DNA of 36,150 nucleotides from the NCBI GenBank assembly GCA_015494735.1, contig WGAQ01000164.1, positions 1-36,150 of the forward strand, in the 5' to 3' direction. Made by a program: the position numbers and the translations under genes. Of the stretch, positions 953 through 36,000 are shown in pieces. Below the pieces are notes generated by a model. The model did not search any database. It saw only the letters and a program-made list of their open reading frames with translations, and was not told the origin of the DNA. Each line of letters begins with the position of its first letter. Position 1 is the stretch's first letter. This DNA is from Caldifarciminota bacterium (GTDB taxonomy: Bacteria; Hydrothermota; Hydrothermia; LBFQ01; DSFT01).

Positions 953-2068
953 TTATAAAGGAGTGGACTTCGAGAATTCGGCGAATTTTTCCCTCACCAG
1001 TTGCTCGAACTGGCTCCTGAATCTTTCCGCAGAGAACCTGCGTGCATGACGGGATATGTACTCGGGGTCGAAGGTCAATTTTTCGAATTCCTCCACCGCC
1101 TGAATTATGGCCTCTGGGGTCTGGTAGTAGAAGAATATGCCGGTCCTGTTCTTCTCCACGGATTCCATGGCTCCCCCTCTGCCGTATGCTATCACGGGGG
1201 TTCCCGCCGCCTGCGCTTCAACCGGCACTATCCCGAAGTCCTCCTTGGCGGCGAATATCAGGGCCCTCGCCTTCTGTATGAGTCTCACGAGTTCCTCATC
1301 GGGAACGTATCCCAGAACCTCTATGTTGGAATGTCCCTTTGCAATGCGCCTGATTTCCCCCAGCTGGGGGCCTCCCCCTGCCACGATGAGTCTCTTCGAA
1401 GGCATCCGGGTGAAGGCCTGAACGATTATGTCCATCTTCTTGTATGGCACGAGACGGGAAACGGCTATGTAGTAATCTTCCTTCTGCTTTTCCAGAGGGA
1501 ATTTCTCCACATCGACCGGTGGATATATGACGGTGGCCTTTCTTCTGTAAACCTTTTCTATGCGCCGGGCCACGTATCTGGAATTGGAAACGAAGTGGTC
1601 CACCCTTATGGCTCCGGTGGCATCCCATATCCTGATTTTGTGGAGTTCCCGGCTCGCCCAGTGGCGCAGGAGGGGGTTGACCTGCTTCATATACTCGTGG
1701 AACATGTCCCATGCGTATCTCATCGGAGTGTGAACGTAGGAGATATGCAGTTGCTCCGCTGAGGTGAGGATGTTCTTCGCCACGGAGTGGGAGGAAGAGA
1801 TGACCAGGTCATAACCCGTTACGTCCAGACTTTCGATGGCATGCGGGAAGAGGGGAAGGAGTTTCCTGTAGAAGTTCTGAATCCCGGGAATTCGCTGGAG
1901 ATAAGAGGCGTTAACCTTGTAATGGGGAATGCCGAGTTTGTCCAGACTGCTTCTCCTGTAGAACATGGTGAAGACATCGGCATCGGGAAAGATTCGGAGG
2001 ATTTCCCGGAGGACCCTTTCGGAGCCGGCTATATCCACTATCCAGTCGTGGACGACTGCTATCTTCAT
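953..2068 (-). CDS. Glycosyltransferase family 4 (GT-B fold)
   Basis: 371 aa; MKIAVVHDWIVDIAGSERVL..., YIAVSRLVPYKKMDIIVQAF, FGIVPVEAQAAGTPVIAYGRGGAMESV (GT4 E-x7-E-like C-terminal motif). Confidence 0.9.
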   Translation of the reverse strand: MKIAVVHDWIVDIAGSERVLREILRIFPDADVFTMFYRRSSLDKLGIPHYKVNASYLQRIPGIQNFYRKLLPLFPHAIESLDVTGYDLVISSSHSVAKNILTSAEQLHISYVHTPMRYAWDMFHEYMKQVNPLLRHWASRELHKIRIWDATGAIRVDHFVSNSRYVARRIEKVYRRKATVIYPPVDVEKFPLEKQKEDYYIAVSRLVPYKKMDIIVQAFTRMPSKRLIVAGGGPQLGEIRRIAKGHSNIEVLGYVPDEELVRLIQKARALIFAAKEDFGIVPVEAQAAGTPVIAYGRGGAMESVEKNRTGIFFYYQTPEAIIQAVEEFEKLTFDPEYISRHARRFSAERFRSQFEQLVREKFAEFSKSTPL

Positions 2069-17448: not shown

Positions 17449-19170
17449 TTAATACTTCCTTTCCACGGGCTTCCAGTAAAGGACCCTTACGGGTTTGTAA
17501 TCGAATCTGGGCTCATCCTTCTCGGAATCGTAGTATGCGAGGGTGTGCTTGAGCCAGTTCTCGTCGTCCCTCTTCGGAAAGTCTCTGCGGAAGTGGGCTC
17601 CCCTGGATTCCTCCCTGCGTAGGGCCCCCTCCGTGACAACCTCCGCCATATCCAGCAGATTCTTGAGTTCGAAGGCCATCATCAGGTCCGTGTTGTAGGT
17701 AAGGGATTTATCCTTCACGTGTATGTTGCGATAGCGCTTCTTCAACTCCTTTATGGTGTGGAGAGCCTCTTCCAGATTCTGCTTGTCCCTGAATACGCCC
17801 ACTTTGTTGTCCATCGTCCTGTTGAGTTCCCTCTTTATCTGGTACGGGCTTTCGGGACCGTCCTTTGCGAGCATGTCGGTTATCTTCCTGACCTCCGCAT
17901 CTGCCACTTCCTGGGGCAGTTCGCGCAGCTCCTTCTCCTTTGCATACCTTGCCACATCCTTACCCACGAAGTAGCCCCATGCCAGGCACTCCGCCGTGGA
18001 GTTGGAACCCAATCTGTTGGCACCGTGAACGGATACGCATGCGGCCTCTCCCGCGGCCCATATCCCTTCTATTATGGTCCTTCCATCCAGGTCCACATCT
18101 ATTCCGCCCATCGAATAGTGGGATACGGGTCTTATGGGAATGGGCTCCTCTATGGGGTCCACACCGGCGAATTTGATGGCCAGTTCTCTGATGAGGGGCA
18201 GTCTCCGGTTTATCTTCTCTGCGCCCAGGTGCCTCAGATCCAGAAGTACGTAGTCCAGTCCGTATGGTCCTTCGAAGCCCCTCCCTTCCTCGATTTCGGT
18301 CATGATGGAGCGGGAAACGATGTCTCTGGGAGCCAGCTCCATGAACTTGGGAGCATAGCGCTTCATGAATCTCTCGCCCCTGTTGTTGATGAGGTATCCT
18401 CCCTCGCCCCTCGCACCTTCCGTAATCAGTATTCCGCTCGGAATGAGTCCGCTTGGGTGAAACTGGATGAATTCCATGTCCTTGACGGGTATCCCCAGTC
18501 TGTACGCCATGGCCATTCCGTCGCCGGTGGAGGAGATGGATGTGGTGGTGAATCCGTACATCCTGTTCGCTGAACCGGTGGCTATAATCAGCGCTTTCCC
18601 GCGCAGTATGTAGATTTCCCCTTCGGGCATGCTGATGCCGACTAAAGCCCTGAATGTGTTGTCCTGAACCACTATCCCGGTGGCGTAGAATTCGTCGTAT
18701 CGGGTGTATCTGTCCGTGTACTTCTGGAGGGTGTCGTACAGGGTCTGCATCTCGAAGAAGCCGGTCTTATCGGCGGCGAATACGGTGCGGAAGAAGGTGT
18801 GGCCACCGAATGGGCGCTGTGCTATTTTCCCGTCCGGACGCCTGCTCCAGGGAATCCCCCATCTGTCCAGTAGGAGTATCTCGTGGGGCATGCGCTTGAC
18901 GAATTTCCATACGGCATCCTGGTCAGCCAGGAAATCGCTCCCCTTTATGGTATCCCATGCGTGCAGTTCGAAGGAGTCGCCCTCATCCTGCCGCAGCACG
19001 GCAGCAGTCCCACCCTCTGCCGATACCGAGTGGGACCTCATTATCTGAACCTTGGAAACGAGAGCTATGTTCAGCTCCCCCTTTGTCTCCATTGCGATTT
19101 GAAGGGCGGCTCGCAGTCCGGCGAGTCCGGTGCCTAAGATGATGATGTCGTGTTCGATGACTTTCGGCAT
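17449..19170 (-). CDS. sdhA: Succinate dehydrogenase/fumarate reductase flavoprotein subunit
   Basis: IILGTGLAGLRAALQIA, RSHSVSAEGGTAAV, FHPSGLIPSGILITEGARGEGGYLINNRGERFMKRY, SMGGIDVD. Confidence 0.97.
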   Translation of the reverse strand: MPKVIEHDIIILGTGLAGLRAALQIAMETKGELNIALVSKVQIMRSHSVSAEGGTAAVLRQDEGDSFELHAWDTIKGSDFLADQDAVWKFVKRMPHEILLLDRWGIPWSRRPDGKIAQRPFGGHTFFRTVFAADKTGFFEMQTLYDTLQKYTDRYTRYDEFYATGIVVQDNTFRALVGISMPEGEIYILRGKALIIATGSANRMYGFTTTSISSTGDGMAMAYRLGIPVKDMEFIQFHPSGLIPSGILITEGARGEGGYLINNRGERFMKRYAPKFMELAPRDIVSRSIMTEIEEGRGFEGPYGLDYVLLDLRHLGAEKINRRLPLIRELAIKFAGVDPIEEPIPIRPVSHYSMGGIDVDLDGRTIIEGIWAAGEAACVSVHGANRLGSNSTAECLAWGYFVGKDVARYAKEKELRELPQEVADAEVRKITDMLAKDGPESPYQIKRELNRTMDNKVGVFRDKQNLEEALHTIKELKKRYRNIHVKDKSLTYNTDLMMAFELKNLLDMAEVVTEGALRREESRGAHFRRDFPKRDDENWLKHTLAYYDSEKDEPRFDYKPVRVLYWKPVERKY

Positions 19171-19376: not shown

Positions 19377-19646
19377 TCAGTACCTTATCTCGAAGTCGTC
19401 GAATTCCTCGTCCGGAGCCACTTCCTCTATATCCATATCTTCCACTATGGCCAGAGGGGGTCCCTCTCTGAGTTTTTCGATGAACTTATCGAGAGCTTCG
19501 GGGCTGCCCTCCGCCACCACCTCGACGATCCCGTCGGGCAGATTCCGGACATACCCCTTTATTCCCAGTTCCAGGGCGGTTCTGCGGGTGAAGAAGCGGT
19601 ATCCGACTCCCTGAACCCTACCCTTCACTATTATTCGGACCCGCAT
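19377..19646 (-). CDS. acyP: Acylphosphatase
   Basis: [47 protein letters not shown]. Confidence 0.96.
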
Positions 19647-20031
19647 TCAAATCCTCCGCATTCTCGTACCGGGAAGGACATTTGGTCATGAGGGTGTGGG
19701 CATTCACCACCATATGGTTTTTATCGAACTTCCCCTCCGCGATTACCTCGTTTTCCTCCGCAAATGCATCGGGAAGTATGCCCCTGTAAACCACCCTGAT
19801 TTCCTTTCCACCTTCGGTGAGTACGAATTCCACCCTGTCCATATCCTTCTGGACCGAGCCCTTTTTGACTATACCTGTCACCTTTACATCCGCGTTATTG
19901 CGGGGAGGGGATTGTACGATTTCGGAGACCGTGAAGTAATAGACGAAGGACTTCTGGAATCCCGCATATATGACATAGGTCATTCCCAGAAGTATTGCGA
20001 TACCCAGGAAGAGATACTTCAGTTTCTGCAT
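19618..20031 (-). CDS. ccmE: Cytochrome c maturation protein CcmE (heme chaperone), Cys-type
   Basis: N-terminal TM anchor, OB-fold pattern [13 protein letters not shown]...[37 protein letters not shown], and [11 protein letters not shown] with Cys in place of the usual heme-binding His. Confidence 0.88.
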
Positions 20032-20645: not shown

Positions 20646-22424
20646 TCACGATGCTTCCTTCTTCCTGCGACGTTCTTTCCTTTCCCCCTTTTTCTTCCGG
20701 GTTTTGATGCGCACCATTCTTAATATTTCGTAAATGTCTTCATCGTCCGGATAGAGGAATGTCGTCCTGTCGCTGAGCGACGTTATTTCCATGAGGGGCA
20801 TTATCTTTTCTTCTTCCTCTTCAATTTCCACTTCCCCGGATGATCCCATGCATTTTTCCAGAGCGGATTTCACCTTTTCCTCCCCTTCTTCCACTATCAT
20901 TTCCATCCCCACTATGGTGAACTTCATCTCCGGAAAGTTCTTCAGGTCTTTGAACCGGACATACTTCACGGTAATATGCTTCTCGAGGCATTCCAGGAAG
21001 TTCTGCAACAGAAGCAAACCCTTTACCGTTCTGTAGAAATTGTTCCTGTCTATGCGGGAGCCTATCTCGTTTTCCGTGTGTCTCAGGAGGGCATTGATGT
21101 TGACCTTCTTCAGGGGGTCTGTAATGGTGAAATCCTCCCTGCGCGTTGACGATGCCATACTTATCAATTGCAGCACGATTGAGAGGCCCAGGGTCCTGTG
21201 GAGATTCTTCTTCAGAATTTCAAACATCTTCCTGTGGGACAGTATCCGGTAGTAAGAGTTTTCCAGAAATGTTCTTCCGCAATCCCTGCACCTGTATCTC
21301 TGTACCCCCTCCACTTTCCCGAATCTTATTATATTCGTACTTCCACAGTAGGGACATGTTTTGAGCGTTCCACCCTGCTTTCCGAACCTCTTCGAGAGGG
21401 GGTGGGATACCCATCCGGGCAGGTGATGGACATCGTTCAGATGGTACAGGATAGGCAGGTTGGTGAAGTGCAGGGCATCCGGAACGAAGGGGAATTCCTC
21501 TTTCAGCAGGTCCAGAAGGTCCAGACCTTTACTTTCCATCCACCTACTTGACTTCCTGAGCATGATTTTCAGATACTGATAGATGTACTTGGCTTTCTCC
21601 CCCTTTTCCTGGAGATATTCCTCTGCCCTGGAGAGTACATCGTCTTCCAGAGCGAAGAGCACGAACAGGAGCAGCGCCTCCATATAATAGGCATTCTTCC
21701 TCAACTTTTCCACCCCCATGTACAGGCTCCTGTTCTTTTCTCCGAATGAGGCCCATATACTGTTGACCCTTCCCCCTATCATCAAAGCATACCACAGGGT
21801 TGCCCTCGGAAGAGTGTCCACGACCTGGATTGCGTTTATGAGTTCCGAATAAAGAGACTCCGTATATAGTGAGATTTCAATTCCTGCATTTTGCAATGTG
21901 TAAATTTCATCTATACTTTCCTTTATGGACAGGAATCTGGAGTGCAGGTCTGCGTATTCCGGTTTCTCCTTCAGTATCTCAAGCCCTTTCCCGTCGTTGT
22001 CCATTACGTCATCCGGGTCTATGAGGTGATAGAATAACCGGGCCAGGGCATACCCTATTTCCGATTCCTTCCTGCGGGCCAGATCCATGGCCATTTCCAG
22101 CCACATGGTGGATTGTTCGAAGATGCCCCTGAGGAGGAGGGTGTAGTGAAATGCCCCTGGATTACGTCCGTAAGCGTTTCGCATAATAGGGTCAGCCATG
22201 GCTCGAAATTCCCTGAACCTCCCGGAAAGGCCTGCAAGGTGAAGTATTACGGGACCCAAGAGGGGTGAATCCCTTAGCATCCGGTCGAATATGTAGTGCC
22301 TTGGAGGATGGGCGAACTGGAACCTCCTGAAGGCCTGAATAAGAGGTTTATCAGTCGGGCCATCGCTCAGGAGGGAGTACTCGGCGTAGTACCTGTCTAT
22401 GAGATTGTTTTCCGTAGCGGCCAC
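20646..22424 (-). CDS. Large alpha-helical protein with an internal transposase-type zinc ribbon (InsA/IS1595-like)
   Basis: 592 aa, GTG start; TCPYCGSTNIIRFGKVEGVQRYRCRDCGRTFLENSYY zinc ribbon in the middle; highly basic C-terminal tail KTRKKKGERKERRRKKEAS. Confidence 0.75.
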   Translation of the reverse strand: MAATENNLIDRYYAEYSLLSDGPTDKPLIQAFRRFQFAHPPRHYIFDRMLRDSPLLGPVILHLAGLSGRFREFRAMADPIMRNAYGRNPGAFHYTLLLRGIFEQSTMWLEMAMDLARRKESEIGYALARLFYHLIDPDDVMDNDGKGLEILKEKPEYADLHSRFLSIKESIDEIYTLQNAGIEISLYTESLYSELINAIQVVDTLPRATLWYALMIGGRVNSIWASFGEKNRSLYMGVEKLRKNAYYMEALLLFVLFALEDDVLSRAEEYLQEKGEKAKYIYQYLKIMLRKSSRWMESKGLDLLDLLKEEFPFVPDALHFTNLPILYHLNDVHHLPGWVSHPLSKRFGKQGGTLKTCPYCGSTNIIRFGKVEGVQRYRCRDCGRTFLENSYYRILSHRKMFEILKKNLHRTLGLSIVLQLISMASSTRREDFTITDPLKKVNINALLRHTENEIGSRIDRNNFYRTVKGLLLLQNFLECLEKHITVKYVRFKDLKNFPEMKFTIVGMEMIVEEGEEKVKSALEKCMGSSGEVEIEEEEEKIMPLMEITSLSDRTTFLYPDDEDIYEILRMVRIKTRKKKGERKERRRKKEAS

Positions 22425-22604
22425 TGGAGAAAGTTTAATGGAACTGGATGTTCAACAACAAATAGTGAAAATTCATGTTTCGAATTCCGGGGCATGTTTT
22501 ATGATGGATTTCCGGCATGATGAAGTGTATGTTCTTGAGAAAGAGTAGTGCTATGAGTCCCGCTGGACGGTCTTTTTCCGCTTAACAACAAAATTATTCA
22601 TTTA

Positions 22605-22622
22605 TTGTCACATATTTGACAA
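22605..22622. promoter_or_regulatory. Inverted repeat TTGTCA-N6-TGACAA overlapping candidate -35 (operator-like)
   Basis: TTGTCA (22605-22610) / TGACAA (22617-22622). Overlaps TTGACA 22616-22621, which lies 18 nt upstream of TAAACT 22640-22645. Confidence 0.5.
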
Positions 22623-22651
22623 CAATCATGTTTAGACCTTAAACTTTGAGC

Positions 22652-24031
22652 ATGAGAATGGTGAAACGATTCGACCTGGAAGATGGATTATCGGTAGCAT
22701 TCGTGGAAGGGGATTCCCTGATACCGGATATGGTGGCGTATCCGTCGGTCAGGGACAGGGTCAGGATACTGGAAAGCGGTTCTGTCGGTCGCCTTTACCT
22801 TCTGAATGAAAACGACCTGCCGGTGATAATAATAGACGGAGAAGCGCTGAAGGGTGGAAAACAGAACAGAACCCTTCGATTTACCCTTGTTCTCGGGAAG
22901 GGCAGGCACGAGATTCCAGCCTTCTGTATAGAGAGGGGAAGGTGGGGGAGAAGGAACAGGTACGGGGATTATGAAGAGCGGGAATGGAGGGCAGGTGAGG
23001 AGCTGTGGAATCTGCAGAGGGCCATCGATACGATGGAGCATCTCCGGAGGGTCGTGGAGGAGCTCTGCGGACCTGTCCCTGATCCCCGCGAGCCCTATGC
23101 TTATCTATTCGAACTTTCCAGGCAACTCCGTGATGAAATCGCTTCCGGTGGAAGATACGTGGGGGACCTTGCTCTGCTGGTGAAGATACTCCACCTTCTC
23201 TTCATTTACAGGGGACTGGAAGATGCGACTTTCCTTTACTTTGCCAGCGATGTTCTCGATGAGGTGTTTTATCTGACTGCTGATGAGATGCGGGAAATCC
23301 TGCCCGGGGCCCCTGTACCCGATACGCAGAAGGAGACCATCCTGAGGATGCTGTCGAATGTAGATGATAGGGAGTTTCCGGAGGAGATGAAGAGGGTGAG
23401 GCAGATGCGAATCGAAAAGGACAGCCTGTGCCAGTATGCAAGGGAAGTCCTTGATAGATACAGGCGGTTCTACATGCGCAGAATCGATGAACTTCGTCTG
23501 GAAAGGGATTTGAGGGAAAGGCAATTCTCTCGTACCGGGGTCCTGCCCCATGCCTTCAGAATGATGTACATAGGAGCAGACCAGTCGGATGTGTGGGGGA
23601 CGGTCGACCACTTCATGAGAATGGAGAACGTAATCAACTCCACGGAGGACTTCCTGGAAGTATTCGAAAAGAGGAATAGAAAGGTGGAAATACCCGATGT
23701 GGAGGTCCCGTCCCCTGCCACTTCAGCAGTTTTCATGAAGAGCGGAATCCCTCTGGTCTTCGAGGAGATAGCCAATCCGGAGGCCTTCAGGGACTATTTC
23801 CCCTATCTCCTGCGGTCCTTCATCATGTTCGGGGATTACATGGAACCCGCTTCTGCTATGGGTGTGGAGGAATTCCTGGCGGGTGTGAATAAACCTCACG
23901 GTAATGGGGTTCGGACCTATGAAGTCTCCGGAAACAGGATAATGGAGGCGCCGGGCAGACGGGAGACCTACTACAACGGCACGCTGGCCCACAGGGTTGT
24001 GTACAATGTGAGAGCGGGGAGGATTTTATGA
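22652..24031 (+). CDS. ARPP-1 family domain protein (ARG/Rhodanese/Phosphatase-superfamily-associated)
   Basis: LPVIIIDGEALKGGKQNRTLRFTLVLGKGRHEIPAFCIERGRW: hallmark GE-x-LxGGKQNR...E.P..C.E.GRW signature; C-terminal ...GTLAHRVVYN. Confidence 0.8.
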   Translation: MRMVKRFDLEDGLSVAFVEGDSLIPDMVAYPSVRDRVRILESGSVGRLYLLNENDLPVIIIDGEALKGGKQNRTLRFTLVLGKGRHEIPAFCIERGRWGRRNRYGDYEEREWRAGEELWNLQRAIDTMEHLRRVVEELCGPVPDPREPYAYLFELSRQLRDEIASGGRYVGDLALLVKILHLLFIYRGLEDATFLYFASDVLDEVFYLTADEMREILPGAPVPDTQKETILRMLSNVDDREFPEEMKRVRQMRIEKDSLCQYAREVLDRYRRFYMRRIDELRLERDLRERQFSRTGVLPHAFRMMYIGADQSDVWGTVDHFMRMENVINSTEDFLEVFEKRNRKVEIPDVEVPSPATSAVFMKSGIPLVFEEIANPEAFRDYFPYLLRSFIMFGDYMEPASAMGVEEFLAGVNKPHGNGVRTYEVSGNRIMEAPGRRETYYNGTLAHRVVYNVRAGRIL

Positions 24032-24798
24032 TGCTCCTGCCACTGCTTTTTTCCTGGGAAGAGGTGACCGGCAGGTGGATATGGAACGATGTGGAGGTCA
24101 TATGGGTTTACAGGGAGGGAGAGAGGGAGGATGGCGTTTCCCTCCCCTGGCTGGAATTCATAGACAGAAAGACCGGAAGGGTGCTGATGAAGACGTATCG
24201 ATACGGGGAGGGCATGTCTGCCACGCTCATCGATAGTGTTCTGATAATGGATTTCGATGGGGATGGGGTGGATGAGATTCTCCTTACCTTTTCCTGGCTG
24301 GGCTCTGCGGGATACGAATCCACCTACATAATGGAGAGGAGTGGAGACGGTATAGAAGTGGTCTTCCATGAGGAAACCCATCCCCTGGATACGATAATGG
24401 ATATGGACGGGGATGGGGACCTGGAGCTGGTGATGTCCGGCGGGACCTTCTTCGTCATGACGTGCAATGCATGTAAACCGGTGTATTATCTCGTTTATGC
24501 CTACTCGAACGGAAGGTGGAGGTGCTCCCGCCAGCTGACGATGGATTACAATCTTCGTCATGCGAATGGAAATTATCGATTTTCCCCTTCGGATTCCGTC
24601 ATAGGTGGATACATGTCTCTGCGGGATTTGCAGAGGGTGGCGTTTCTTCTCTATGGAGGCAGGATGGGGGAGGCCAGGAGATTCTTCCTGAGCAGGTGGA
24701 GAGGGGATGGTGCAGAGGAGGGGTGGAGGAGGTTGATGGAAGATGTGGAGAGCAATAGGGTTCTAAGGTGCATCTATCCACAGCGGAGGGAGAGATGA
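24028..24798 (+). CDS. Predicted exported protein with FG-GAP/VCBS-like calcium-binding loops
   Basis: VLIMDFDGDGVDEILLTF and IMDMDGDGDLELVMSGG (DxDGDGxxE loops); ATGA overlap with the upstream ORF. Confidence 0.6.
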   Translation: MMLLPLLFSWEEVTGRWIWNDVEVIWVYREGEREDGVSLPWLEFIDRKTGRVLMKTYRYGEGMSATLIDSVLIMDFDGDGVDEILLTFSWLGSAGYESTYIMERSGDGIEVVFHEETHPLDTIMDMDGDGDLELVMSGGTFFVMTCNACKPVYYLVYAYSNGRWRCSRQLTMDYNLRHANGNYRFSPSDSVIGGYMSLRDLQRVAFLLYGGRMGEARRFFLSRWRGDGAEEGWRRLMEDVESNRVLRCIYPQRRER

Positions 24799-25022
24799 AG
24801 GATTATATATGCCGGAAGTTGCAGTACGAGCTGGAGCGCATGGGCAGGAAACCCCATTACTCGTGCGGGAAAGTGAAGCATTATCTGGAAAGGATTCGCC
24901 GGAGGGGTGAGCCCTGTCTTATGGCTTTTCTGAGGAGGATTCTAAATGCGTGCTCCCGCGGGGATTATGAGGAAGGGATATCTTTCGTAAAGCGTGCAGT
25001 TTCCGGGTGTTGTTTGCGGTAG
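24795..25022 (+). CDS. Small Cys-containing hypothetical protein (75 aa)
   Basis: MKDYICRKLQYELERMGRKPHYSCGKVKHYLERIRRRGEPCLMAFLRRILNACSRGDYEEGISFVKRAVSGCCLR; ATGA overlap with the upstream ORF. Confidence 0.5.
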   Translation: MKDYICRKLQYELERMGRKPHYSCGKVKHYLERIRRRGEPCLMAFLRRILNACSRGDYEEGISFVKRAVSGCCLR

Positions 25023-25034
25023 TAAAATTTCCCC

Positions 25035-27521
25035 GTGGCCGAAAAGACTTCCCCCATTTACAGGCAGTATAAGAGGCTCAAGGAAAAGTACAGGGACGCC
25101 ATACTCCTGTTTCGACTGGGGGATTTCTACGAGATGTTCTTCGAAGACGCATACAAGGCCTCGAAGGTCCTCAATCTAACCCTCACTTCCAAGCCCATGG
25201 GGAAAAATCTCCGGGTTCCCATGTGCGGAATTCCAGTCAAGGCCGCCAACTCCTACATAAAGCGCCTCCTGAATGCTGGATACAAGGTGGCCATCGCGGA
25301 GCAGATGGACGAGATGGAGACGAAGAGGCTCATGAAGAGGGAGGTGGTGGAGGTTCTCACTCCGGGGACCATCATGGATGAGGACTTTCTGAGCGATTCG
25401 GAAAACAATTACATCGCCGGTATATTCAGGGATGGGGGGAAAGTGGGTCTTTCTCTCCTGGATGTTTCCACGGGGGAATTCACCCTGTACGAGGGGAGGA
25501 TGGACGAGGTGGTGGACTTCCTGAACCGGATGGATGTGCGTGAAATCGTGGTGCCAGAGGGGATGGATTTCGCCCGCAGACTTTCCAGGAGTGTGCATCA
25601 GGTGGAGTTTCCTTCCGTGGAATTCGATTTCGTCTCTGCAAAGGAGGTTATAAAGGATTTCTTTGGAAGGGGTATCGAATCCTTCGTTGGTCTCAGGATT
25701 CCGGTGGCGTCGGTCAGGGCGGCAGGGGCCCTTTTGAGATACGTGCGGCAGAACAAAGGGGGTCTCGTAAAGCACATAAGGCACCTGAGGGTGGGTAAAC
25801 TGGGCAACTACATGATTCTCGACCCTCAGACCATACGCAATCTGGAACTGGTGGATAATATACGGGGAGATGCTTCTGGGATGACCCTCCTGCGGGTACT
25901 GGACAGGTGCGTTACCCCCGTGGGAAAGAGGGCTCTGCGCCGGGCCATACTGAATCCATACAGGAATCCCGACAGGATAGAAAGGCGTCTGGACAGGATA
26001 GAAGCGCTGATGGAGATGGACAGGAAACTCAGGAGTGTGAGGGATATACTGTCCCGCATGGGGGACCCGGAGAGGAAGATGGGGAAGGTGTCCATGGGCA
26101 GGATTTCCCCTGTAGAGATGCGGAATCTGGCCCTGTCCATGACCCTGTGGAAGGAGGTGAAGGAAGAGCTATCCCCCCTTGCCCCCTTTCAGGATTTCTT
26201 CAGGGAGTCCGAATCCCTCGAAGAGATAGCCGGAAAGATTCTGAGTACCCTGTCGGAGAATCCACCCTACAATATTTCGGAGGGAAATGTGGTCAGGGAG
26301 GGGGTGGATGAGAATCTGGACAGGTACAGGAAGGTGCTGGAGGATGCTGCCCGCAGGTTGAAGGAACTGGAGGAGAGGGAGCGGGAGGCCACGGGCATTC
26401 CCACCCTTCGCATAGGATATAACTCTGTCTTCGGTTATTACATAGAAATCACGAAACCCCACAGGGACAGGGTTCCGGACCACTGGGAAGGGGTCCAGAC
26501 GCTGGTTAACACCATCCGCTTCAAGAGTCCGGAGCTGGTCGAAATCGAAAGGGAAATCGTCGAGGCGAAGGAGCGCATCCTCTCGATAGAGAAGCTCATT
26601 TTCGACCAGTTGAGGAACCTTCTGCTCTCCAATGCCCCTGTTCTCAGGCGATTCTTCGAATACCTGGGGGAACTGGACCTGGATGCATCCATCGCCACCG
26701 TTTCCATAGAGAGGAAGTTCGTTCGTCCCACCTTCAATTCCGAAGGTCTTTACGAAATCAGAGGGGGGAGGCATCCGGTGGTGGAGGAGACTGCGGAGGA
26801 ATTCATACCCAACGATTTGCACCTGGACGATGAGCAGACCATAATAATCCTTACGGGTCCCAATATGTCAGGTAAGTCCACATATCTGCGTCAGAACGCC
26901 CTTATAGTGCTGATGGCCCATATGGGATTCTTCGTCCCGGCCGAATCGGCCAGGATAAATCTCACAGACAGGGTCTTCAGCAGGGTGGGGGCTTCCGATG
27001 ACATATCCCGGGGACTCTCCACCTTCATGGCGGAGATGGTGGAAACGGCCACCATTCTTAACAATGCCACCCGCAACAGTTTTGTTATCCTGGACGAAGT
27101 GGGCAGGGGCACATCCACCTTCGACGGGATGGCCATAGCGAGGGCGGTGGTGGAATACCTTTCCAGATTCGTGAGGGCCAGGACCCTCTTTGCAACCCAC
27201 TATTCGGAACTCGCTTCTCTGGAGGACGAACTGGACAACGTTTCCTCCTACACGATGGAGGTCAGGGAATTCGGGGATGAGGTCATATTCACCCGCAGGG
27301 TGGTGAGGGGAAGGAGCGACCGCAGTTATGGCGTGTACGTGGCCCGCATAGCAGGGCTGCCGGATTGGGTGGTGAAGAGGGCGCAGGAGTTGCTCCTGGA
27401 GTACGAGGCCAGCAGAGGGCCCGAATTCCTCCTGAATCTGGACCCGGATAATCTCACTCCCCGTCAGGCTCTCGAATTGCTGTACCGTCTGAAGGAGATG
27501 GCAGAAAAGAAGAACGATTAG
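25035..27521 (+). CDS. mutS: DNA mismatch repair ATPase MutS
   Basis: GDFYEMFFEDA mismatch-binding motif; TGPNMSGKSTYLRQ Walker A; VILDEVGRGTSTFDGMAIA; FATHY. GTG start. Confidence 0.98.
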   Translation: MAEKTSPIYRQYKRLKEKYRDAILLFRLGDFYEMFFEDAYKASKVLNLTLTSKPMGKNLRVPMCGIPVKAANSYIKRLLNAGYKVAIAEQMDEMETKRLMKREVVEVLTPGTIMDEDFLSDSENNYIAGIFRDGGKVGLSLLDVSTGEFTLYEGRMDEVVDFLNRMDVREIVVPEGMDFARRLSRSVHQVEFPSVEFDFVSAKEVIKDFFGRGIESFVGLRIPVASVRAAGALLRYVRQNKGGLVKHIRHLRVGKLGNYMILDPQTIRNLELVDNIRGDASGMTLLRVLDRCVTPVGKRALRRAILNPYRNPDRIERRLDRIEALMEMDRKLRSVRDILSRMGDPERKMGKVSMGRISPVEMRNLALSMTLWKEVKEELSPLAPFQDFFRESESLEEIAGKILSTLSENPPYNISEGNVVREGVDENLDRYRKVLEDAARRLKELEEREREATGIPTLRIGYNSVFGYYIEITKPHRDRVPDHWEGVQTLVNTIRFKSPELVEIEREIVEAKERILSIEKLIFDQLRNLLLSNAPVLRRFFEYLGELDLDASIATVSIERKFVRPTFNSEGLYEIRGGRHPVVEETAEEFIPNDLHLDDEQTIIILTGPNMSGKSTYLRQNALIVLMAHMGFFVPAESARINLTDRVFSRVGASDDISRGLSTFMAEMVETATILNNATRNSFVILDEVGRGTSTFDGMAIARAVVEYLSRFVRARTLFATHYSELASLEDELDNVSSYTMEVREFGDEVIFTRRVVRGRSDRSYGVYVARIAGLPDWVVKRAQELLLEYEASRGPEFLLNLDPDNLTPRQALELLYRLKEMAEKKND

Positions 27522-35124: not shown

Positions 35125-36000
35125 ATGGAAAGCTGGTCCATATTATTCAATTTCGAAATAATCACTCCCCTGATAATGGCGGGTGCCAGTCCGGCGGAGC
35201 CGGAGGTCAGAGAGCAATCCATAAACGGGATTTTCCGCTGGTGGTTTCGATTCATCAATGCCCATAAAGTGTCCAGTGTTAAGGAACTCTTCGATGAAGA
35301 AAGCAGGGTGTTCGGCTCACAGAAGGAGGCAAAGCCATTCAGGATGCGGGTGCTGGATAGGGATAAATTGAAGGGGAATTTCAAAGCATATCTCAGGATG
35401 AACGATGCTTCCAGGAAAAACATCTATAGATTGGCTTTCGAGCCGGAGCAGGCATTTATCCTGAATATTCAGGAGGATTTAAGGACAGGCATTGCGGATG
35501 AGCTGGAAAGTATTGTAAAGTTCCTTTCCCTCCTCGGAGGGGCTGGTGCCAGGTGGAGGAGGGGTTTCGGAAGCCTGATGGAAGCGGATTTTATTCCATC
35601 ATCCGATACACCCGAAGGACTGGTGGAGGAATATAAATCTGTCCTTCAACTGAACGGGAAATCGTTCAGGGCAACCTATGGGGATGCGGGGCTTTTCATG
35701 AACCTGACCAGCACCTCCATATTCCTGGTCTTCCCGGAAGGGGGCTTCTGGAGCGGATGGGAAGGAGCCATGAATAGTCTGAGGGACAGGATTTATAGAC
35801 CTTTGAAGGGTAAATCGAAAAGCATTACCATAAGGGGATACAGGGGCAGTCCCCTGATAATTCAGATAAAGAAGAACGGGAGCGGAAAATACTACGGAGT
35901 CATCATGGTCTTCCGCAGGTGGAAATCTGGAGCGGATTTTCTCAGAGATGTTTTGAAGTTGAAATCCGGACTTAGAGTTGTGGGTATCCATAAGGTATGA
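35125..36000 (+). CDS. cmr1: Type III-B CRISPR RAMP protein Cmr1
   Basis: FEIITPLIMAGASPAEPEVREQSINGIFRWWFRFI (N-terminal Cmr1 signature) and LSLLGGAGARWRRGFGSLM (glycine/arginine-rich RAMP loop). Confidence 0.9.
   Translation: MESWSILFNFEIITPLIMAGASPAEPEVREQSINGIFRWWFRFINAHKVSSVKELFDEESRVFGSQKEAKPFRMRVLDRDKLKGNFKAYLRMNDASRKNIYRLAFEPEQAFILNIQEDLRTGIADELESIVKFLSLLGGAGARWRRGFGSLMEADFIPSSDTPEGLVEEYKSVLQLNGKSFRATYGDAGLFMNLTSTSIFLVFPEGGFWSGWEGAMNSLRDRIYRPLKGKSKSITIRGYRGSPLIIQIKKNGSGKYYGVIMVFRRWKSGADFLRDVLKLKSGLRVVGIHKV

Follow-up and report, generated by a model that had tools for sequence, protein, structure and literature searches.

In an uncultured bacterium, the genes for a variant ARPP-1 protein and a 592-aa zinc-ribbon protein stand back to back around a 227-bp gap, and their divergent order, together with a duplicated motif and a promoter in the gap, is conserved in the sister species. 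We give a probability of about one half to the reading that the pair forms a small genus-specific unit, made up of an autoregulated zinc-ribbon DNA-binding regulator and an ARPP-1 enzyme.

The window (the whole stretch of 36,150 nt analysed) is contig C164 of a 1.76-Mb genome in 182 contigs, and its nearest relative, G001 (candidate division WOR-3 bacterium, JALSOK010000145.1), is a sister species of the same genus. The locus is a property of uncultured WOR-3 bacteria, a little-known lineage. The genus is represented by these two genomes only, both of them MAG-type assemblies and each about 95% complete; the phylum set comprised 147 genomes and a wider set 390. The G001 locus (L043) was used for the comparison of gap and genes, which runs from the zinc-ribbon gene to mutS, as the G001 contig ends just past the zinc-ribbon gene and stops short of its far side. 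The open reading frames claimed by the earlier note are present at 20646-22424 (minus strand, 592 aa), 22652-24031 (plus strand) and, coupled to the latter by ATGA, 24028-24798. The features are as follows.

20646..22424, minus strand: zinc-ribbon protein, 592 aa, candidate DNA-binding regulator (NF050000, E 7.3e-15)
22425..22651, no strand: shared divergent control region, 227 bp (in L043 1768-1985, 218 bp, its ends and motifs corresponding)
22432..22438, minus strand: -10-like element of the zinc-ribbon gene, in the context ATTAAACTTT, 7-8 nt before the GTG (CCATTAAACTTT kept in L043)
22452..22462, minus strand: copy A of the repeated motif, TTTGTTGTTGA, occupying the zinc-ribbon -35 position (TTTGTTGCTAA at L043:1793-1803)
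22582..22592, minus strand: copy B of the repeated motif, TTTGTTGTTAA, its centre 65 bp before the ARPP-1 start codon
22616..22645, plus strand: predicted sigma-70-like ARPP-1 promoter, TTGACA-18 nt-TAAACT, 10/12 to consensus
22652..24031, plus strand: ARPP-1 protein, 459 aa (PF20208, 96.8 bits; 30-sequence alignment; AF2 pLDDT 85.6)
22973..23521, plus strand: predicted all-helical insertion within the ARPP-1 domain, about 185 residues (about 108-290; split PF20208 match and AF2 model)
24028..24798, plus strand: 256-aa protein with two DxDGDG loops (FG-GAP-like), overlapping ARPP-1 by ATGA
24795..25022, plus strand: Cys-containing ORF, 75 aa, absent from the sister species
25035..27521, plus strand: mutS, 88% identical in the sister species, a downstream neighbour kept within the genus

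Conservation of the gene neighbourhood

The order zinc-ribbon gene, ARPP-1, FG-GAP gene and mutS is identical in G001. From position, the earlier note had proposed a candidate system of genes acting together, and adjacency in related genomes was checked: the pair are divergent neighbours in G001 and the control region between them is conserved. What stands of that system is a conserved, probably co-regulated divergent pair; it is confined to one genus, and the 75-aa ORF is no conserved part of it. Over aligned residues, identity between the two species was 57% for the zinc-ribbon protein, about 61-62% for ARPP-1, about 40% (40-41%) for the FG-GAP protein and 88% for MutS, with dN of 0.34, 0.30, 0.57 and 0.08 respectively (synonymous sites being saturated). 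Thus the divergent order was kept although the paired proteins are only 57% and 61% identical, which argues for the unit. On the other hand, the pair occurs in two genomes only, and ARPP-1 elsewhere manages without the zinc-ribbon protein, which argues against it.

Across the phylum ARPP-1 is widespread, with 78 of the 147 genomes carrying it, and at the six loci inspected outside the genus its neighbours differ from those in the window: polysaccharide deacetylase (as in the literature), a racemase with relA/spoT, ndk with a carbamoyltransferase, and a VWA protein. The sister genus lacks ARPP-1, and its mutS has other upstream neighbours. The neighbourhood therefore gives functional context locally, within the genus, but not the general context hoped for in the earlier note, since the pair is confined to the genus and ARPP-1 keeps other company elsewhere. 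Outside the genus, two genomes of one family have ARPP-1 immediately upstream of relA/spoT (L045:5853-8833 and L046), and at L044:4056-6584 (G059:C28) an 842-aa open frame that combines a protein-kinase domain with a UvrD helicase, a putative fusion or artefact, is directly followed by ARPP-1 and polysaccharide deacetylase.

A somewhat unlikely reading is that the two are incidental neighbours, fast-evolving genes side by side since the genus ancestor, whose conserved intergenic elements are two ordinary promoters and whose repeated motif serves as an A/T-rich promoter element or as the site of an unrelated factor. The variety of ARPP-1 neighbours in the phylum and the count of two genomes favour it, and so does the downstream mutS, which is syntenic too, so that order is conserved generally over this distance. 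The evidence that tells against it lies in the gap itself.

A duplicated motif and promoters in the shared control region

The gap measures 227 bp, in agreement with the roughly 220-bp control region claimed before. In G001 an upstream ATG was rejected as the start of the zinc-ribbon gene; the conserved -10 element and GTG put the start at L043:1767, which gives the 218-bp length of the sister gap.

In both species the gap carries two same-strand copies of the motif TTTGTTGYTRA. Copy A is centred at -33 in the window and at -31 in G001, with unequal -35 spacing in the zinc-ribbon promoter (17 vs 15 bp), a difference that counts against the unit; copy B is identical in both sequence and distance in L043 (1916-1926; start codon 1986) and is followed by no recognisable -10 on its own strand. 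The motif matched twice in the 36-kb window, both times in the gap, against 0.04 matches expected, and 0 of 100 shuffles held two; these chance figures are optimistic, since the motif was defined after inspection of the gap. The stronger argument is that both positions are kept in a second species. Each whole genome holds three exact copies, two of them in the gap and the third inside an ORF, so the motif marked out no genome-wide regulon in either species. The two copies of G001 form part of a 21-bp repeat (19/21 identical), a length that 0 of 1000 shuffles reached; the exact repeat in the window is only 9 bp long and unremarkable alone (191 of 1000 shuffles), which, like the choice of the motif after inspection, weighs against the unit. 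Since copy B lacks a -10 on its own strand and keeps its distance of -65 from ARPP-1, and since the motif is nearly unique to the gap in both genomes, a global factor is disfavoured and the notion of two incidental neighbours with ordinary promoters loses ground.

The ARPP-1 promoter of the sister species reads TTGACA-18-TAAAAT (11/12), and in both species 6 bp separate the end of the promoter from the ATG, which makes a leaderless ARPP-1 transcript probable; sigma-70-like promoters arose at a chance rate of 0.6-0.9 per region in shuffles. The -10-like element of the zinc-ribbon gene was missed by the consensus scan. Six genes of the window (953-2068, 17449-19170 and 19618-20031 on the minus strand; ARPP-1 at 22652-24031, mutS at 25035-27521 and 35125-36000 on the plus strand) show a TATAAT-like hexamer a few nucleotides before the start and no obvious ribosome-binding site, and leaderless transcripts may therefore be common in this lineage.

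Operator-like sites are thus conserved in the gap, as for an autoregulated divergent regulator-target pair. In the unit that we favour, the zinc-ribbon protein would bind the TTTGTTGYTRA sites: from copy A, at the -35 of its own gene, it would exert autorepression, and from copy B, whose centre lies at -65 relative to ARPP-1, it would activate that gene (or repress it). That the zinc-ribbon protein is the motif-binding factor, and the sign of regulation, are what we infer.

The zinc-ribbon protein as a candidate regulator

The transposase-type zinc ribbon assigned earlier to the 592-aa protein proved real: the IS1/IS1595 N-terminal zinc-binding domain model NF050000 matched residues 357-388 (E 7.3e-15) over a ribbon of the form CPYCG-x18-CRDCG, IS1/IS1595 type. 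The ribbon (about 357-388) follows a largely helical N-terminal region (about 1-345, in a low-confidence model) and precedes a possible HTH and a basic tail. Full-length relatives occurred only within the genus (2 of the 147 phylum genomes; the G001 orthologue is 57% identical), and all other matches in the 147 phylum genomes and the 390-genome set cover the ribbon and adjoining residues only. Likewise, a two-sequence profile of the protein found the sister species as its sole match.

Given that its ribbon best matches IS1/IS1595 N-terminal domains, the 592-aa protein could be a transposase, exotic or in decay, and the locus the remains of a mobile element. We consider this highly improbable on several grounds: i) unlike IS1/IS1595 transposases, it carries its ribbon in mid-protein, not at the N-terminus, and the Pfam scan found no DDE or other transposase catalytic domain; ii) the IS1 model NF033558 scored 37.6 bits against a cut-off of 100 and matched at positions 1-52 of 199 only; iii) the gene is single-copy and intact at one site in two species; iv) the mobile-element collections held no match. 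The locus does not look mobile: searches of phages, plasmids and IMG/VR gave no relative of the zinc-ribbon protein.

Several of the ribbon-only matches are small ribbon and HTH proteins of the same order that lack a catalytic domain, and these related stand-alone proteins count in favour of the unit. Profile alignment of the 592-aa protein to them held up well over the ribbon but poorly over the HTH, so DNA binding is plausible from the sequence. Like the stand-alone proteins (L060, L061; L052), it has a homologous ribbon, then an HTH-like stretch and no catalytic domain; they differ in being 88-156 aa long (or 365 aa, 5'-truncated), in not being seen with ARPP-1 and in showing no detected N-terminal homology. 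Such zinc-ribbon and HTH proteins, 88-156 aa long and free of a transposase catalytic domain, form families that are seen repeatedly in genomes of that order (L053, L054, L058-L062). At L052:3-1100 (G006:C40), in a different family of the order, a 5'-truncated 365-aa protein has a zinc ribbon and HTH at its C-terminus behind a long N-terminal region, and a beta-propeller gene follows; the architecture of the truncated protein resembles that of the 592-aa protein, and no homology between the two was found outside the ribbon.

Structure prediction, suggested in the earlier note for both proteins, was usable for ARPP-1 (pLDDT 85.6) but not for the zinc-ribbon protein, whose AF2 model from two sequences was uninformative (pLDDT 38.7). 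This model gives DNA binding no structural support, which counts against the unit, and a solved-structure search with the protein returned weak matches only, mostly short zinc fingers. In the unit as proposed, the protein would act as a DNA-binding regulator by way of its transposase-type ribbon (and a possible degenerate HTH), with the large helical region as a putative sensor or partner-binding part.

An ARPP-1 variant with a predicted helical insert

The ARPP-1 assignment is firm: the match to PF20208, whose cut-off is 27 bits, scored 96.8 bits (E 1.9e-27). Across the 30 aligned proteins G63-E64, G68, Q71, R73, C92, E94, R97-W98, Q311 and W315 are invariant, and so are the motifs DGE-x3-GGKQNR (Q71) and FCIERGRW (C92). 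An absolutely conserved Cys and Gln is a described trait of the ARPP family (PMC9503650), and the window protein retains both (C92, Q71), which, with its family identity, speaks for the proposed unit.

The usual ARPP-1 form is one uninterrupted domain of ~300 aa. The window protein departs from it, with ~185 helical residues intervening: PF20208 matched in two pieces (profile 40-110 to residues 37-103, profile 141-228 to residues about 307-392) around them, and we therefore class the protein as a variant. In the AlphaFold model on the 30-sequence alignment (pLDDT 85.6, pTM 0.63), an all-helical block spans residues about 108-290, from helix H108-139 to helix H256-290, and separates two portions of a mixed, strand-rich core whose strand pattern fits a duplicated beta-meander core with an inserted beta-barrel in outline only. 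The block was missing from 28 of 28 canonical WOR-3 homologues aligned (282-392 aa long), to which the window protein is 17-25% identical. The insert is thus a confident structural prediction, and it and the duplicated motif of the control region are new here, being absent from the earlier note. A Foldseek search of the model against PDB and BFVD gave no match at E 0.001, and no solved-structure relatives of ARPP-1 were found; a single-sequence scan of the genome contigs gave no relatives of ARPP-1, and no homology was detected among the insert, the zinc-ribbon protein and the FG-GAP protein.

Compared with described ARPP-1 proteins (PF20208; PMC9503650), the window protein is alike in score, in its invariant Gln and Cys and in the beta-rich core of the model, and differs by the ~185 inserted helical residues and by its 17-25% identity. 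Iyer et al. 2022 (PMC9503650) predict ARPP function from gene context and structure models only. Within the proposed unit, ARPP-1 with its conserved Cys and Gln would presumably act on a sugar-bearing substrate (nucleotide- or glycan-linked), and the inserted helical domain may serve as a lid or docking platform; catalysis and substrate are here read from family context.

Two-gene neighbourhoods of ARPP and a WYL transcription factor (PMC9503650) provide a precedent, in which an ARPP gene likewise adjoins a candidate DNA-binding regulator gene. The window pair differs in being divergent, and in place of a WYL domain its candidate regulator combines an IS1-type zinc ribbon with a large helical part. 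A Pfam scan of the four locus proteins found no Nudix, WYL regulator or rhodanese-phosphatase partner. An ARG-centred ADP-ribose system was rejected, because ADP-ribosylglycohydrolase (PF03747) is found in neither the window genome nor G001 (about 95% complete).

The first description of ARPP comes from predicted antiviral systems centred on ARG (PMC9503650), and it is quite improbable, but conceivable, that the locus is a conflict or defence module, in which ARPP-1 would reverse or install a sugar-linked modification and the zinc-ribbon protein would be a nucleic-acid-binding effector or sensor instead of a regulator. Non-synonymous divergence of about 4-7 times that of mutS (dN 0.30-0.57 vs 0.08) fits such a module, but the comparator, mutS, is a slow one. 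A Cmr1 gene some 10 kb off fits it too, yet PADLOC matched none of the three main proteins and reached only a marginal E of 0.011 for the non-conserved 75-aa ORF. The absence of ADP-ribosylglycohydrolase, the stable presence beside mutS in both species and the lack of phage, plasmid and IMG/VR relatives of the zinc-ribbon protein also weigh against defence. The Cmr1 gene, at the contig end (35125-36000, plus strand), belongs to a type III-B/C CRISPR system (PADLOC, E 4.6e-44; RAMPs).

Genes downstream of ARPP-1

The loops of the 256-aa protein, described before as a DxDGDG-loop exported protein, are present (DFDGDGVDE and DMDGDGDLE), but export is doubtful, since the N-terminus has some 8 hydrophobic residues, lacks a positively charged n-region and is a weak signal-peptide candidate. 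Its FG-GAP match is weak (E 0.003, below the cut-off). A paralogue lies elsewhere in the genome (L127:6452-7273, G000:C182) beside queG- and def-like genes (named from their translations), with no ARPP-1 and no zinc-ribbon gene in the stretch read around it, so the FG-GAP gene need not be specific to the unit: it is probably co-transcribed with ARPP-1 and may be an unrelated passenger.

The small Cys-containing ORF noted earlier is there, starting at 24795 with a ribosome-binding-like GGAGG before its ATG, but it is not a conserved part of the locus: G001 has 30 bp only between the FG-GAP gene and mutS. The 75-aa protein had no family match in Pfam, NCBIfam or PHROG. One weak match (35%, E 5e-4) lies inside a 310-aa frame of a further genome of the order (G005:C49:20576-20740).

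Significance

The finding has limited effect, as a single uncultured genus accounts for every known case of the pair. Within that genus, the locus is a compact and testable unit: an enzyme candidate with a unique inserted domain and a candidate regulator, with two conserved sites in the 227 bp between their genes. A transposase-type zinc ribbon has apparently been reused here in a large non-transposase protein. A bolder reading, which we hold to be unlikely, is that the 592-aa protein represents a new class of one-component regulator, a large helical sensor joined to an IS1-derived zinc ribbon, that controls, and perhaps physically partners through the insert, an ARPP-1 enzyme acting on a sugar-nucleotide modification. 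In that case, its ligand or substrate would show what the ARPP family does biochemically.
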